Positions 10,536-28,440 of a stretch of DNA of 41,111 nt are shown piece after piece (the stretch's first letter is position 1; the number at the start of each line of letters is the position of its first letter). Location of the stretch: contig QBUL01000182.1 in the NCBI GenBank assembly GCA_013180605.1, forward strand, positions 1 to 41,111, given 5' to 3'. This stretch comes from Candidatus Methanophagaceae archaeon GoMg1. GTDB lineage: Archaea > Halobacteriota > Syntropharchaeia > Alkanophagales > Methanospirareceae. The notes under the pieces were generated by a model. The model was not told the origin of the DNA. It made no database searches and saw only the letters and a program-made list of their open reading frames with translations. A program made the translations under genes and the position numbers.

Positions 10536-10610
10536 ATTTTGTTTTGAATTTTGACTTCAGTGCTTAGAATTTATACCACAAGAGATTAAATAGTTACTAA
10601 CCGGTCGGGT

Positions 10611-22239: not shown

Positions 22240-22295
22240 CCAAAAACCCAAAAGAAAGGTTTGTTTAGGATTTCAAGTTTAGTGCTTAGTATTTA
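22240..22295 (-). repeat. GTGCTTAGAATTTAT-family repeat abutting the pup stop codon
   Basis: TTGTTTAGGATTTCAAGTTT, then AGTGCTTAGTATTTAT, matches the ends of the repeats at 20440, 24560 and 10545. Its inner edge (TAAATACTAAGCAC on the minus strand) contains the TAA that stops the pup candidate, so the repeat begins essentially at the end of that gene. Confidence 0.6.
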
Positions 22296-22556
22296 TTCTC
22301 CTGAAGTTGCATATATTTCATAGGGCATTATCTTCTTGTTCGCCTTCTTCTTCCCTCTTAACTTACTCACGAGGTCGGCGGCTTTCTCCTTCTTCTCCCG
22401 TTTCTTCAACCGTTCCATCAGGTTCGTCATCTCTTTCTCCTTTCCCGCACCGCCGTATTCCTTCTGTTCCGCTTTTACATACCCGTCCTCCTCTTCTATT
22501 TCCTCTTCTTCACCTTCCTCTTCCATTCCTTCAAAAACCAATGCGTTTTCGTCCAC
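22293..22556 (-). CDS. pup: Pup-like protein modifier candidate
   Basis: An 87-residue protein unrelated in detail to known families but built like Pup, the small disordered modifier of bacterial pupylation. Residues 1-30 are very acidic (GMEEEGEEEEIEEEDGY); a Gly-rich hinge (YGGAGKEK) follows; residues 42-75 (MTNLMERLKKREKKEKAADL) would form an amphipathic helix of the sort that docks on the ARC/Mpa coiled coil; the C-terminus is MPYEIYATSGE. Pup ends in Gly-Gly-Glu or Gly-Gly-Gln, and PafA couples the terminal Glu side chain to lysines. Here a Glu is encoded directly, preceded by Ser-Gly rather than Gly-Gly. Pup is usually about 60-70 residues, so this is longer. The start is GTG at 22556 with AGGGGG upstream; ATG at codon 11 is an alternative. 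It lies 81 bases after dop on the same strand. The position is strong evidence, the sequence moderate. Confidence 0.6.
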   Translation of the reverse strand: MDENALVFEGMEEEGEEEEIEEEDGYVKAEQKEYGGAGKEKEMTNLMERLKKREKKEKAADLVSKLRGKKKANKKIMPYEIYATSGE

Positions 22557-22637: not shown

Positions 22638-24203
22638 CTAAAAGATCACCTTATCAGGATACAACTCCTTTGCGGCTGATAGAACATCCTCTATTTGCTT
22701 TCCCTCCTCCATTTTCGTCCCTATCTCTTCCTTATTCAACATAAACGGCTCATCCAGCATTATTTTCGCCTCATCCAGCACCATCGTTGACCAGCTTACA
22801 CTTCGCACATGCGAGCCATACCTTCTCAGCATTTCAACCTTGAAAAAGTCCCGTGTCTGTTCGGGTGCATTATGCAAAGCGTATTTCACCCTATCCGATA
22901 AAGCCCACCAATCAACTTCAGGCAATGCTCGCTTTGCGAATGCCTGCGACTCCTTCGGATTGTAAAGGCAACTGCCTTTCAGACTGTCTTCACCATCCTG
23001 AATGCCGTACAGCGCACTTTCGTCCACCAGTGCGTATTGGTTACAGACGCTTATTCCTTCAGCGGCGTTTTTTGGCTCATAATTCACAAGCAATGCCAGT
23101 TTCGTCACCCAGTCTATCCCATCCACGTATTTTTCGAGCTGCCGCGTTTCTAAGTCCTCTATCACTCCTTTTAAGCCTTTTCTTCCTATTTCCGTCCATT
23201 TTTGGTCTTCTTTTTCATCTCCCATCTCTTCATACATCGCCTCTATCCGTTCGTGATAAAATCGAAGAATGGAAACGGCATCCGTGGACTCGCCGTTCTT
23301 CAACTTTAGCTTCCACTCGCATTCCTGTGTATCTGCCGATATCTTTTTGAACGTTCTTACAGGATCTTCTATCTCTGGAGCATCGTCCAGAAACCCGGAT
23401 TCAAATGCACTGATTACCATCGCCTGTGCAATGTCACGCAAGAAAATCGCGTATTCAGAACGAAGCGCTTCGTAATGTATGTCGTGCAGTCGCCAGTATT
23501 GACGTGCAGCATGCGGCTGGTCTCGCGTGTTCAGAATACCTCTGCCCACCGTGGTCGAAAGAGAGGATGGATGAACAACAAACATCGCTCTTGGCGAAAT
23601 AACGAACTTCACTCCCTCTTTACCAATAGTGTCTCCCGAAACAACGTCTCCTGACCCGGTGAACAGTATTCTTGTAACCATCCAGGGTATTAGCGCCTTC
23701 TCTACGCGACTCCAATCCCTGCACGCTGCCCTTTTTGTTATTATATTCCCGTGTGTAGCGTAAGTATTGGTCTTTACTCTTTTCGCACCTGCACTGCCCG
23801 CACCCGAGCGACTGAAGAAATTCGCAACGTTATTTTTATGGACAACCACTTTTTTCTTTAACGCCAGACTCGCCTCTTTTGATCCCATAAAAGCATATAT
23901 CTCAGATGCTTTGTCGTATGCCACGGCATCAAACGGGTTGTTGTAAGAAGGCGTTGATATTTCAAGATGCCCCATATCGTTATAAATCCGGCATCCGTTT
24001 TCACCAAACGAAGAAGCTATTTTCGATTCATGCGCCTCTTGCGATACCTCTGTAGCGGTGTCCCAGTTCACATCGCGTGAAAATTTTCTTCGTTTTAATC
24101 CCTGAATCGCAGCGTTAACGAGCAAAGACGGATTTAAACTTACTTTTATACTCAACGGATATTCCTGCTCTATCCCTCTTATCTTATTTTCCGTCCCTGC
24201 CAC
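22638..24203 (-). CDS. dop: Dop-like Pup deamidase/depupylase
   Basis: A 521-residue member of the PafA/Dop carboxylate-amine ligase family. Conserved stretches in order: GIEQEY (metal-binding Glu, residues 10-15), RIYNDMGHLEIST with the catalytic Asp76, DAVAYDKASE, KNNV near residue 124, TRILFTGSGDV, GILNTRDQPHA and, near the C-terminus, TRDFFKVEMLRRYGSHV followed by SVSWST. Spacing YxDxxH, the TGSG form and the C-terminal LRRYG...SW pattern fit Dop rather than PafA. Between residues 45 and 68 (NWDTATEVSQEAHESKIASS) lies a short counterpart of the Dop loop. In bacteria Dop deamidates Pup-Gln and removes Pup from substrates; because the Pup candidate already ends in Glu, depupylation is the expected role. 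It starts with GTG behind GGAGAGAGG. Confidence 0.87.
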   Translation of the reverse strand: MAGTENKIRGIEQEYPLSIKVSLNPSLLVNAAIQGLKRRKFSRDVNWDTATEVSQEAHESKIASSFGENGCRIYNDMGHLEISTPSYNNPFDAVAYDKASEIYAFMGSKEASLALKKKVVVHKNNVANFFSRSGAGSAGAKRVKTNTYATHGNIITKRAACRDWSRVEKALIPWMVTRILFTGSGDVVSGDTIGKEGVKFVISPRAMFVVHPSSLSTTVGRGILNTRDQPHAARQYWRLHDIHYEALRSEYAIFLRDIAQAMVISAFESGFLDDAPEIEDPVRTFKKISADTQECEWKLKLKNGESTDAVSILRFYHERIEAMYEEMGDEKEDQKWTEIGRKGLKGVIEDLETRQLEKYVDGIDWVTKLALLVNYEPKNAAEGISVCNQYALVDESALYGIQDGEDSLKGSCLYNPKESQAFAKRALPEVDWWALSDRVKYALHNAPEQTRDFFKVEMLRRYGSHVRSVSWSTMVLDEAKIMLDEPFMLNKEEIGTKMEEGKQIEDVLSAAKELYPDKVIF

Positions 24204-24604: not shown

Positions 24605-24736
24605 CTAAATGCTTCTCAGAATGGAAAAATATTCTTCCCTTGTCATCCCAACTGTTTTCATGTTGCCTCGTATGACCGTTACAGGGATTTCATCATATTT
24701 TGGGATGACTACGGCTCTTTTCGCATTTTCAACACC
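24605..24736 (-). pseudogene. HicA toxin remnant (C-terminal half only)
   Basis: Downstream of, and overlapping, the HicB gene, one frame reads AVVIPKYDEIPVTVIRGNMK, then TVGMTREEYFSILRSI before a stop. This is the C-terminal half of HicA/YcfA mRNA interferases (a short strand, then 'EIP..T.R...K..GMTREE'). The N-terminal half with the dsRNA-binding-like strand and catalytic His is absent, and the frame is closed upstream by TGA. The toxin is dead. Confidence 0.6.
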
Positions 24737-24948
24737 TCATCCTCTACGGCATAACCTGCTTCTGCCAAAAAATCGTTCAACGTCCCAAGCTCGGCTGTTT
24801 CTTCCAGTTGTATCTCTATAACCTCTCTCAAATTCTTCTTTGCTTCTTCAGATGTATGACCACAACTTGCAACGTCCAACTCGGGGCAATATGCCGTGAA
24901 CATCCCTCCTTCCTTCCATATTTCAACAGTAGCGATTATCTTTTTCAT
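24709..24948 (-). CDS. hicB: HicB family antitoxin
   Basis: A 79-residue HicB: IIATVEIWKEGGMFTAYCPE, LDVASCGHTSEEAKKNLREV, IEIQLEETAELG, the partial RNase H-like fold of HicB antitoxins. Such proteins bind and inhibit HicA. It begins only 6 bases after the pafA stop codon, so it is probably translated from the arc-pafA transcript, and only a HicA remnant follows. It is the one gene in the pupylation cluster without an obvious link to it. Confidence 0.88.
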   Translation of the reverse strand: MKKIIATVEIWKEGGMFTAYCPELDVASCGHTSEEAKKNLREVIEIQLEETAELGTLNDFLAEAGYAVEDEVLKMRKEP

Positions 24949-24954
24949 TGCTAG

Positions 24955-26712
24955 CTAAACCTCTTCTTCCTCGCCCCTGCTCTCCTCCTCTGCCCTGTTT
25001 ATCTCTTCTAACCGTTTCTTTATCGTGTCCTCATTCCAGCCATCCAGTTCATCAAATCTATACGTCTTATTATTAGAATACAACAAATAATCTAAATACG
25101 GATTCCTGACTATTCTGTTCCTTATCTCGCGGCTTATCTCCTCCTCCCAGCCTCTTACGTCTTCTTCCTCTGCCAGAAGCCGCACAAGAACCTGCCTCGT
25201 TGCCTCACCTCGCCTCCGTTCACGCAAAAACACCACCACCGCGCTTGGCATCCTCGCAAGTTCCGGATACCGTTCAAACATCCGCGAATACTCTTCTCCC
25301 GTTGGTCTACCCATGTCTATCTTTATCTTTGGCTCCCTGTTTATCGTTATCTTATTCCAGCTCAGTGCGGCATTCCCGAATTCCGATGCAAGTCTTACCC
25401 TCAGCTCCGCCCTTGAATCCTTCGGTGGAAATAACAACGCTTCTCCTATCTCCTCTTCTGTTAATATTCGTTCAACGCCTATTTTATCCGCTATGCGCTC
25501 GTATAGGTCATAATCGCAGAGATTGGTAAAATCAAACGAAGCCGCTATCTCTTTCTCCATCTGCTCATCCATCATGTAGATGCTCCGATAATCGAATTTC
25601 CCTTTTGATGTGTATTTATAATCAAAATCATCTATCTCGTTCTTTATCACCCATAATTTCAGCACCCATTCCAAACGCCGTACCACATAAGGGTCTTCAA
25701 GCAATCCCTGCCTGAACTTATCACAAAGCCTCTTGAACGTATCCAACACGTATTTGTCCCAATAGGACGTCTCTCGTTCTTCAAACAGCTCCTCGATCAC
25801 CGCGAGATAATTCGTCTCTAAGTAATCAATCGCTAGCTCAGTCCTTCCGTTCGTCAGTTTTACCCGCCAATCGCCTTCGGTATTTGCTGAAATGTCTTTA
25901 AATGTTTGAAGTGGATTCCAGATGTCTTCCACATGCGAGAGTTTTCCTGTTTCTATTGCATCCAGAACGTACGATGTGAGCGCATTATTAAGCAGCCGTG
26001 TAACTTCCGAGCGAACACCTTCTCCCGATGTGACATGCACACGGTATTTATCTTTTGTGCCCAACGGCTCATCGCGTGTAGACAATATTGGCCATTGAGA
26101 CGGCGACTCGGTAAGAACCCGCTTTGAAACCATCGCTTTCGGTGAAATCACGTATTTTAACCCCTCTTTCTCCGCTACAAAACCGCCAGCACCAAAAAAT
26201 ATCTTACGAAGTACTAAAAAAGGTATAAACAGATTCTCTTTACCCACAAAGTTCCGCCGCACCACCGCATAGGATTCGTGCGTGCCCCTGCTGTATCTCT
26301 TGTCTATCTCTACGTTTGCTTTCCAGCACTGGATGTATGAAGGGGCATTTGCCCTTTTTATCAATTTCTCCCGGTATTTTTTATTTGCTTGCTCTACACC
26401 TATCTGCATATACAGCTCCGCGGCTTTATCGTATTTCAGCGCCTCGAAGGCATTTCGGCACTCGGGTGTGGCTATCTCCAGGTGACCTCCCGTGCAGATA
26501 TAAATCCGCGAGCCGTTTCTCAAAAACCCGTCGTTTCTCCGCCGCAGCTTCGAGCATATCGCATCCGTTCCGTCAAAAAAGGTATACGTCTCAAGTGCAT
26601 GAATCACTTCGTCAACATGATAAAATCTCGCATACCTGTACAAACCAGGCGATTCTGAACTTATACCCACTCTAAATTCGTGCTCTACCCCTTGCCATTT
26701 GTTCAGATCCAT
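24955..26712 (-). CDS. pafA: PafA-like Pup ligase with Cys at the catalytic Asp position
   Basis: A 585-residue member of the PafA/Dop family, longer than bacterial PafA (about 450-480). In order: GVEHEF (metal-binding Glu10/Glu12), DGFLRNGSRIYICTGGHLEI, then ATPECRNAFEALKYDKAAE, NVEIDKRYSRGTHESYAVVR, FIPFLVLRKIFFGAGGFV, ILSTRDEPLG, and the C-terminal FPPKDSRAELRVRLASEFG. The YxxxGxH spacing and GAG form fit PafA rather than Dop. PafA ligates the Glu side chain of Pup to substrate lysines using ATP. In bacterial PafA the segment is YLDVGSHPEY with catalytic Asp; here it is YICTGGHLEI, Cys73 (codon TGC at 26494-26496). A C-terminal extension rich in Arg and Glu (residues ~500-585) is also unusual. 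It follows arc by 90 bases. Confidence 0.87.
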   Translation of the reverse strand: MDLNKWQGVEHEFRVGISSESPGLYRYARFYHVDEVIHALETYTFFDGTDAICSKLRRRNDGFLRNGSRIYICTGGHLEIATPECRNAFEALKYDKAAELYMQIGVEQANKKYREKLIKRANAPSYIQCWKANVEIDKRYSRGTHESYAVVRRNFVGKENLFIPFLVLRKIFFGAGGFVAEKEGLKYVISPKAMVSKRVLTESPSQWPILSTRDEPLGTKDKYRVHVTSGEGVRSEVTRLLNNALTSYVLDAIETGKLSHVEDIWNPLQTFKDISANTEGDWRVKLTNGRTELAIDYLETNYLAVIEELFEERETSYWDKYVLDTFKRLCDKFRQGLLEDPYVVRRLEWVLKLWVIKNEIDDFDYKYTSKGKFDYRSIYMMDEQMEKEIAASFDFTNLCDYDLYERIADKIGVERILTEEEIGEALLFPPKDSRAELRVRLASEFGNAALSWNKITINREPKIKIDMGRPTGEEYSRMFERYPELARMPSAVVVFLRERRRGEATRQVLVRLLAEEEDVRGWEEEISREIRNRIVRNPYLDYLLYSNNKTYRFDELDGWNEDTIKKRLEEINRAEEESRGEEEEV

Positions 26713-26739: not shown

Positions 26740-26808
26740 TGGTGTGAGTTGTCAGGCGTTAGCATCTTTTAAGCCAAACACCTGAAGCCTCAAACCTAAA
26801 ACCTAAAA
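26740..26808 (-). repeat. CCTAAAACCTAAAA-type repeat abutting the arc stop codon
   Basis: GGCGTTAGCATCTTTTAAGC, then CACCTGAAGCCTCAAACCTA and AAACCTAAAA. On the minus strand the arc gene ends CACTTTTAG and runs into GTTTTAGGTTTGAGG; the last Phe codon and stop are thus shared with the repeat-like sequence. Confidence 0.45.
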
Positions 26809-28437
26809 GTGCATCCCTGTTTCTTCCTCTGGCATCTCGCCAAACCCAGATGTCAATATCTCCTCTGCTCTTCGCTCCACAAACTTGTCAAAACCCTCTT
26901 TCAGATGCCGCATATTTACTCCTATCTCCTCTATGCGTTTATACCGCTTCTGCAAGTCCTTCGTCTTGTCCCCCGCATCTAATATCGCTGCGATTCCCTC
27001 CTTATCCCACATTCTTCGCATATCCTCGTTGCTGATAACTCCTTTTTTCAACATCAGCAATGTCCTCTCCTCCAATGCCTTATCCCTTGCATAATTGAAT
27101 ATCTGCGATATAAACCGCCCTGTTATCGTATCCGCCCTCTTTATCCTCCCTATTTGTGTCTCAACATACTTATCACTGTACATATAGCCGACAATCTCTT
27201 TCACCAGATGCAACCTCGCTTCTTCTTCTCCTCCCACTTCCTTTATCAAGTAGTGGTCAACAGGAATCTTTTTAGCATATAGGGCGGCAATAGAAGACAC
27301 CGCTTCCTTATCAGGCTTTGGAACCTCAATTATCTTGTCAAATCTCGCCCTGAATGCTGAATCTATAAGATACAACCTGTTTGTCGCTCCTATCACCGTA
27401 AGGTGTGGGTGCAGAGCATTGAATCCTTCTAAGAGGTCAAGTAGCTGCCCGGTAACTCTCTCCGGCGCTCCCGAAGAGCCCGTGTACATCCCTCTTTCCT
27501 GTGCTAACGCATCTATCTCATCAAAGAAAATCACACCATAGTCATTTTCCCCTTCCTCTAATTTCGCGTTCGCCGCCTCGAACACCATTCGCACATTGCG
27601 CTCTGATTCACCGAGCCACATACTGAAAAGTTCTCCTGCCCCTATCTTTACAAATTCACAGTTGGGTAATGCCGATGCCAACGCCTTTGCACACATCGTT
27701 TTCCCGCAGCCCGGCGGACCGTACATTAATATTCTTCGTGAGCATTCGCCATATTTTGTATAATCATCGGGGTTCACCATCGGAAGAACAATACTCTTTA
27801 TTAATTCCTGCTTTATCTCCTTTAAACCACCAATGGCATTAAAACTCACCCCAGGATTCTTTGTGACTTCATAGCGGGATATTGCCTTTGCCTTGTAACT
27901 CTTCTTTATGTCATACGTGCCGGGGAGAAGCCCCACCTTCATCCCCTCTTTTAGCATTTCCGTTTCATCTTTTCTCAGCCTTTTATATATTCTACCACGT
28001 CCTTTCCCGGTTGATATTTCTCCAACCCATCCCTCGTCGTCCTGCATCAACTCTTCTATCTCGCCCACTTCTAAATCCACCATTCTGTCGTATACCTTCG
28101 TGATGCCTATGGTAAATCCACTGGGGTTGTTCCTGTCCGGGATACGCCCTACAAATACAAATTTACCCGCCTTCAAATCCTTTATCTCCATCTCTGTTAG
28201 CGTTCCATAAGGTAAAGCCTTTAATGCACCATTCAGATTAACAATGGCGCCTTCTTCCGTCTTCTCCACTACAAATCCACAGTCCAGAGGCGGCGACCGT
28301 GATTTAGACACGAGTTTCTCCAAATCCAGTTTATACGCCTCTGTCTCCTCGTATTTCCTCATCAACCGCCGATAGTCGCTCTCTAACCGCTCATACTCGT
28401 ATCTTGGGATATAGTCCCCCTCTATTTCTTCCATCAT
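26803..28437 (-). CDS. arc: ARC/Mpa-like proteasomal AAA+ ATPase
   Basis: About 544 residues with the domain order of the bacterial proteasome activators ARC/Mpa. An N-terminal coiled coil (residues ~14-45, YERLESDYRRLMRKYEETEA) is where Pup binds in bacteria; two OB-like beta domains follow (~55-190); then one AAA+ module with Walker A GPPGCGKT (241-248), pore-loop-like FSMWLGESE, Walker B VIFFDEIDAL (~303-312) and sensor GATNRLYLIDSAFRARFD. The ring would unfold tagged proteins into the 20S core. PAN, the usual archaeal activator, is shorter (about 400-430) and has one OB domain. The C-terminus is EETGMHF, with His where the HbYX motif has Tyr. The track's first codon is TTG; ATG at 28437 or 28434 after GGGTGGT is likelier. 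It is divergent from the PhoU-like gene. Confidence 0.87.
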   Translation of the reverse strand: MMEEIEGDYIPRYEYERLESDYRRLMRKYEETEAYKLDLEKLVSKSRSPPLDCGFVVEKTEEGAIVNLNGALKALPYGTLTEMEIKDLKAGKFVFVGRIPDRNNPSGFTIGITKVYDRMVDLEVGEIEELMQDDEGWVGEISTGKGRGRIYKRLRKDETEMLKEGMKVGLLPGTYDIKKSYKAKAISRYEVTKNPGVSFNAIGGLKEIKQELIKSIVLPMVNPDDYTKYGECSRRILMYGPPGCGKTMCAKALASALPNCEFVKIGAGELFSMWLGESERNVRMVFEAANAKLEEGENDYGVIFFDEIDALAQERGMYTGSSGAPERVTGQLLDLLEGFNALHPHLTVIGATNRLYLIDSAFRARFDKIIEVPKPDKEAVSSIAALYAKKIPVDHYLIKEVGGEEEARLHLVKEIVGYMYSDKYVETQIGRIKRADTITGRFISQIFNYARDKALEERTLLMLKKGVISNEDMRRMWDKEGIAAILDAGDKTKDLQKRYKRIEEIGVNMRHLKEGFDKFVERRAEEILTSGFGEMPEEETGMHF

Positions 28438-28440
28438 CAA

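Follow-up and report, generated by a model that had tools for sequence, protein, structure and literature searches.

Pupylation is described as a bacterial system, mainly an actinobacterial one, and an archaeal origin has been proposed for bacterial proteasomes. Reviews up to 2025-2026 report Pup from actinobacteria and, beyond them, from only a few bacteria. In the known pathway, the ligase phosphorylates a terminal Glu, which has no need of deamidation, and links it to a lysine; Dop reverses the modification (PMC12288473, PMC3511204). A divergent bacterial Pup without the terminal GGE is encoded at a second locus of Leptospirillum ferrooxidans (PMC3511204). For archaea, a 2010 survey proposed a Pup-related family, arCOG08988, in Halobacteria on the basis of its secondary-structure pattern (PMC2948915), and the SAMP/Urm1 proteins (PMC4569737, PMC4895103) are small protein modifiers tied to archaeal proteasomes. 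An archaeal pupylation system is not described in the papers that we searched, which included reviews to 2025-2026 and left most subscription journals and preprints outside reach.

The window analyzed here is the whole stretch of 41,111 nucleotides, and it belongs to the 2.34-Mb genome of a methane-oxidizing archaeon (ANME-1), which has what looks like a full set of genes for marking proteins with a Pup-like tag. We read an 87-residue open reading frame (ORF) in this window as the modifier (Pup) of a divergent archaeal pupylation system, and we give this reading a probability of about 0.83 because of the set of genes around it, the conservation of its tail, its linkage to dop, the homology of the neighboring enzymes and the presence of 20S genes in the genome. 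If the reading is correct, pupylation would be placed in archaea (ANME-1, Alkanophagales, Bathyarchaeia and a class of Thermoproteota encoding methyl-coenzyme M reductase (MCR)), the origin of the system would be reopened, and versions of 31 to 38 residues would rank with the smallest protein modifiers. The features of the locus are listed in Table 1.

Table 1. Features of the candidate pupylation locus (window coordinates)
Feature	Position	Strand	Description
Dispersed repeat copy	22282..22296	+	15-mer GTGCTTAGTATTTAT; abuts pup stop; outside the pupylation system
Pup-like modifier gene	22293..22556	-	87 aa; GTG start, TAA stop; from ORF list and translation
15 C-terminal codons of pup-like gene	22296..22340	-	NKKIMPYEIYATSGE; near-invariant in 48 distinct orthologues
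P1, Dop-like Pup-ligase family member	22638..24203	-	521 aa; catalytic Asp76 (YND; codon 23976-23978)
HicB/UPF0150-like ORF	24709..24948	-	79 aa; between P2 and P1; under Pfam cut-off
P2, second Pup-ligase family member, candidate ligase	24955..26712	-	585 aa; Cys73 (codon 26494-26496)
ARC/Mpa-like AAA ATPase	26803..28440	-	545 aa; N-terminal coiled coil, two beta-rich segments, AAA domain

Comparison of the locus with described systems

On the minus strand the genes run from the ARC/Mpa-like ATPase through P2, the HicB-like ORF (probably a bystander) and P1 to the pup-like gene, which is the last in the operon. This arrangement resembles the actinobacterial Pup-proteasome system (Mpa/ARC, Dop, Pup, PafA) in having two enzymes of the Pup-ligase family, a modifier gene beside dop, an ARC/Mpa-like ATPase in the operon, a 20S proteasome in the genome, and a modifier ending in Gly-Glu or Gly-Gln. 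It differs from that system in its archaeal host, in a modifier without detectable homology to PF05639 that has Ser (or Ala or Pro) in place of the first Gly, in an ANME-1 P2 lacking the PafA Asp, in proteasome subunits encoded outside the operon, and in an ATPase tail that reads GMHF rather than GxYx.

The GxYx tail of Mpa serves for docking to the proteasome; the C-terminus of the ATPase described here is conserved as TGMH[FYL]. The pup_AAA model matches residues 18-458 of the ATPase, covering the coiled coil, interdomain and AAA portions, with an E-value of 2.6e-45 that falls under the curated cut-off. Its AlphaFold model, of low confidence (mean pLDDT 56), contains a coiled coil and two beta clusters, and the two beta-rich segments are likely to be tandem OB domains according to this model. 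A second AAA ORF, of the size of PAN, is found at C58.

By sequence, the modifier stands apart from bacterial Pup. Neither a PF05639 match at E<=1 in Pfam nor a Pup chain in a profile search of the PDB was obtained, and shuffle tests of the 87-residue family against bacterial Pup gave z of about -0.8 to 1.2. The Gly-Gly-Gln/Glu terminus of PF05639 Pup is absent, while the final Gly-Glu/Gln is kept, and the candidates from all three archaeal groups discussed below end in Glu or in Gln, which would be convertible to Glu. Use of the name 'Pup' for the archaeal peptides thus rests on context, enzymes and terminus, and implies no membership in the Pup sequence family. The divergent Pup of L. ferrooxidans is a precedent for an end other than GGE, although it is bacterial, and the likeness is drawn from its description, not its sequence. 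The SAMP/Urm1 modifiers differ in their beta-grasp fold, GG terminus and E1-type activation, and neither their sequences nor their enzymes are related to the archaeal Pup-like set. Unlike the Ser-Gly-Glu modifier, arCOG08988 of Halobacteria ends in CC.

Conservation of the candidate modifier and its terminus

The preliminary description of this DNA noted a Pup candidate ending in YATSGE, with one Gly replaced by Ser and Tyr five residues from the end, and these features can be read directly in the ORF, whose last 15 codons and stop occupy the interval 22293-22340 and whose tail, NKKIMPYEIYATSGE, is followed by TAA. Bacterial Pup, by comparison, has this Tyr at -6, both in Nonomuraea (L149, ...EEFVRSYVQKGGE) and in the M. 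tuberculosis Pup chains in the PDB; the tail of the archaeal modifier, with Tyr at -5, is also distinguished by being rich in Lys. The N-terminal half of the protein is acidic and the C-terminal half Lys-rich. A helix is predicted at approximately residues 38-70, and the AlphaFold model, of low confidence (mean pLDDT 59), places a long helix, a short helix and the last two residues in that order. Pup bound to Dop has a like order of long helix, short helix and last two residues (PMC8599861).

We gathered orthologues both beside dop and elsewhere in the genomes of Methanophagales (ANME-1) and Alkanophagales, and compared their C-termini and lengths. Of 48 distinct proteins, 45 end in TSGE, two in TAGE and one in TSGQ, so that the last residue is Glu in 47 and Gln in one, and the residue before the terminal Gly-Glu/Gln is Ser in 46 and Ala in two (Pro in the short ORFs described below). 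None of the 48 extends past the SGE terminus. Mean pN/pS is 0.04 over the last 17 codons versus 0.18 for the preceding 28 codons, so that purifying selection on this final segment is extreme. The archaeal Ser-Gly-Glu end is best read as corresponding to the Gly-Gly-Glu terminus of bacteria.

The pup-like gene was found in 48 of the 53 genomes of the order, and in 14 of the 15 that are at least 90% complete; several genomes that gave no match have a contig that stops just 3' of dop. Homologous small ORFs adjoin dop in nearly all Methanophagales, as would be expected if the suggestion of a Pup-type modifier were right, and their terminal Glu is real and conserved. Both Alkanophagales genomes carry the gene unlinked from dop. 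The two Alkanophagales copies (L129:3600-3869 (+) and L130:3993-4232 (-)) lie beside a gene resembling adenine deaminase, named by eye. In L049 a single contig carries the same pup sequence on both strands, which is probably a palindromic assembly artefact.

The Pup-ligase family enzymes

The Pup-ligase family profile matches P1 with an E-value of 6e-66 and P2 with 4e-58. In structure searches P1 is best matched to Dop (E 6e-37) and P2 to the same family (E 5e-28). P1 has what is expected of a Dop, membership in the Pup-ligase family together with the catalytic Asp, and this Asp is present in all 103 archaeal ORFs counted (81/81 and 22/22).

P2 presents a different picture at the corresponding position. 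Ligation in mycobacteria depends on the Asp of PafA (PMC5358908), and this essential residue (Asp57 in M. tuberculosis, Asp64 in C. glutamicum) is not kept in the ANME-1 P2, where Cys occupies the position in 44 of 44 Methanophagales and Alkanophagales ORFs counted; a looser set that includes paralogues gives 48 Cys and one His. We fixed the position by means of the 4BJR D64N construct, in which the Asn aligns to this very column. In Bathyarchaeia the residue is His, and only in the MCR-encoding class of Thermoproteota is it Asp. P2 nevertheless retains the GxExE, HxE, HE[NS] and RDEP-type motifs and is strongly conserved.

Bacterial Dop has a Dop-loop with a conserved Trp ahead of strand 2; in this region P1 has a Trp-containing, acidic segment (NWDTATEV in ANME, WSVEDEIGN in Thermoproteota) that is out of register with the bacterial loop, and no such segment was found at this position in the Bathyarchaeial P1. 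The Glu in the CHEN motif of bacterial Dop and PafA is replaced by Gly in the P1 motif THGN, and by His or other residues in the P1 of other archaea; P2, in contrast to P1, keeps the HE but is without the Asp.

In a tree of 30 sequences, to be read with a warning of long branches and with four bacterial sequences included, the archaeal P1 proteins form one clade and the archaeal P2 proteins another, while bacterial Dop and PafA group together; one-to-one orthology of these with P1 and P2 is therefore not recovered. A search for further bacterial PafA/Dop sequences for the tree returned none from viral contigs, one chromosome-sized record and a fragment from plasmids, and one distant match from phages. 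A distant member of the Dop/PafA family (27% identity, E 3e-20) is encoded at 42189-43355 of MT835496.1, the 159-kb record of a bacteriophage from the human gut. Some Methanophagales genomes carry a third paralogue, P3, away from the main operon (L147:2003-3520 (+) and L148:4074-5669 (+)); it shares approximately 41-46% identity with P2, and in two P3 paralogues Cys stands where PafA has its Asp.

Short modifier candidates in other archaea

Among 196 sampled Halobacteriota genomes, the Pup-ligase family was found in 31, all of the ANME-1 order, and was not found outside that order. Beyond this sample, we found family members in six of 256 genomes of the class to which a Bathyarchaeial locus belongs, and in eight of 40 genomes of another Thermoproteota class. 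All eight of the latter encode MCR alpha, and the class is probably Methanomethylicia.

Immediately 3' of each Dop-like gene whose downstream end is intact (five Bathyarchaeial and eight Thermoproteota copies) lies an ORF of 31-38 residues that ends in APPGE or APPGQ. Examples are MSEVVLPSFKRKERVDKKLKKEHSEVVAPPGE from the MCR-encoding Thermoproteota class and MTDKKDGDLFPSFKKRKLKREKPVIKKEHKEVVAPPGQ from Bathyarchaeia. The last residue is Gln in three and Glu in two of the Bathyarchaeial copies and Glu in all eight of the others; the codons vary while APPGE is kept. Two archaeal lineages, Methanophagales and Bathyarchaeia, thus share with bacterial Pup the alternation of Glu and Gln at the C-terminal position. 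These candidate mini-Pups are unannotated (L076, L078, L163, L165 and L166, and L196-L201, L203 and L204). The apparent absence of a mini-Pup in G453 (L164) goes with a gap of 100 N inside the Dop-like gene.

Comparison of the ANME Pup family with the Bathyarchaeial mini-ORFs by hhalign gave no link, and the ANME tail shows weak similarity to the Thermoproteota mini-ORFs, the best pairs having z of 3.6-4.7, uncorrected for the many pairs compared. The Bathyarchaeial and Thermoproteota loci that we read yielded no ARC-like gene.

Proposed mechanism and alternative explanations

By analogy with the bacterial pathway, we propose that the modifier tail would thread into the active-site groove of both Pup-ligase-family enzymes. 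ATP would activate the terminal Glu at its side-chain carboxylate, which would then be joined to a target lysine, most likely by P2; P1, with its catalytic Asp, would take the tag off and, where Pup ends in Gln, would also deamidate it. With its coiled coil the ATPase would recognize the acidic N-terminal half of the modifier and its central helix, and it would feed tagged proteins to the 20S proteasome. The preliminary description had called a terminal Glu consistent with a Dop that only depupylates. This fits the copies ending in Glu, but not the one Methanophagales copy ending in SGQ, which comes from a single genome in a set consisting mostly of metagenome assemblies, or the three of five Bathyarchaeial copies, from three genomes, ending in PPGQ. 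Given these Gln-ending copies, some lineages probably continue to require deamidation.

The tag might be mainly non-degradative, a reversible modification by P1 and P2 with the ATPase serving for unfolding or another process. The mini-Pup loci, where no ARC-like gene was seen nearby and where a tag of 31-38 residues leaves little room for a coiled coil that binds an ATPase, would suit such a role, and some actinobacteria retain pupylation without a proteasome (PMC3511204). In Methanophagales, however, the operon includes the ATPase, whose C-terminus resembles the GxYx of Mpa, and 20S genes are present, and we regard a mainly non-degradative tag as rather doubtful. It is unlikely, too, that P1 acts as both ligase and depupylase, with P2 a pseudo-enzyme or regulator that has lost the catalytic Asp. 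PafA itself can depupylate during Pup transfer (PMC5358908), and the Asp is found in every archaeal P1 counted while P2 (and two P3) has Cys, or His in Bathyarchaeia; yet the invariance of the Cys is unlike random decay, the other motifs of P2 are intact, and the Thermoproteota P2 retains Asp. Starting from P2 as the candidate ligase, one can also envisage a separate archaeal branch of pupylation, with modifiers down to 31 residues and a different ligase chemistry in ANME-1, where the invariant Cys (His in Bathyarchaeia) would act as a thiolate or imidazole base, or the Cys would bind Pup through a gamma-glutamyl thioester, in the manner of ubiquitin-type transfer. We offer this only tentatively and think it somewhat improbable. 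The change from Asp to Cys or His in the candidate ligase offers a direct test of that residue's role.

The small protein might instead regulate the Dop/PafA-like enzymes or serve as their substrate, or it might be some unrelated protein, basic in character, that ends in GE by chance; its Lys-rich C-terminal half and its lack of homology to bacterial Pup would accord with this. This is very unlikely, as the extreme C-terminus is the most constrained part of the protein and a small ORF ending in G[EQ], with E and Q alternating, accompanies P1 and the enzymes in three archaeal lineages. A last alternative concerns the terminus alone. As the preliminary description observed, the TAA of pup lies at the edge of a dispersed repeat: the 15-mer GTGCTTAGTATTTAT overlaps the stop and the last base of the final codon (22293-22296), and the repeat was suspected of having reset the terminus on insertion. 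It accompanies pup in four copies of this genus, close duplicates aside, and is missing beside pup in L074 and L145 of the same genus, which end in TSGE, and in all other genera; all end at the same residue. Because orthologues without the repeat have the identical ending, the repeat did not set the terminus, and the chance that its insertion created or truncated the end is negligible. The Ser-Gly-Glu terminus is a conserved trait of the family, not damage by a repeat. The window contains seven matches to the 15-mer at up to three mismatches, versus 1.6 expected, and none of 100 shuffles reached seven. A longer unit common to several copies can be recognized by eye as TTTAG(G/A)ATTT...TTTAGTGCTTAG(A/T)ATTTA. 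Copies of the form TTTAG(G/A)ATTT...TTTAGTGCTTAGAATTTA(T), mostly intergenic, are located at 10560, 20259, 20440, 22282, 24461 and 24566 of the window.
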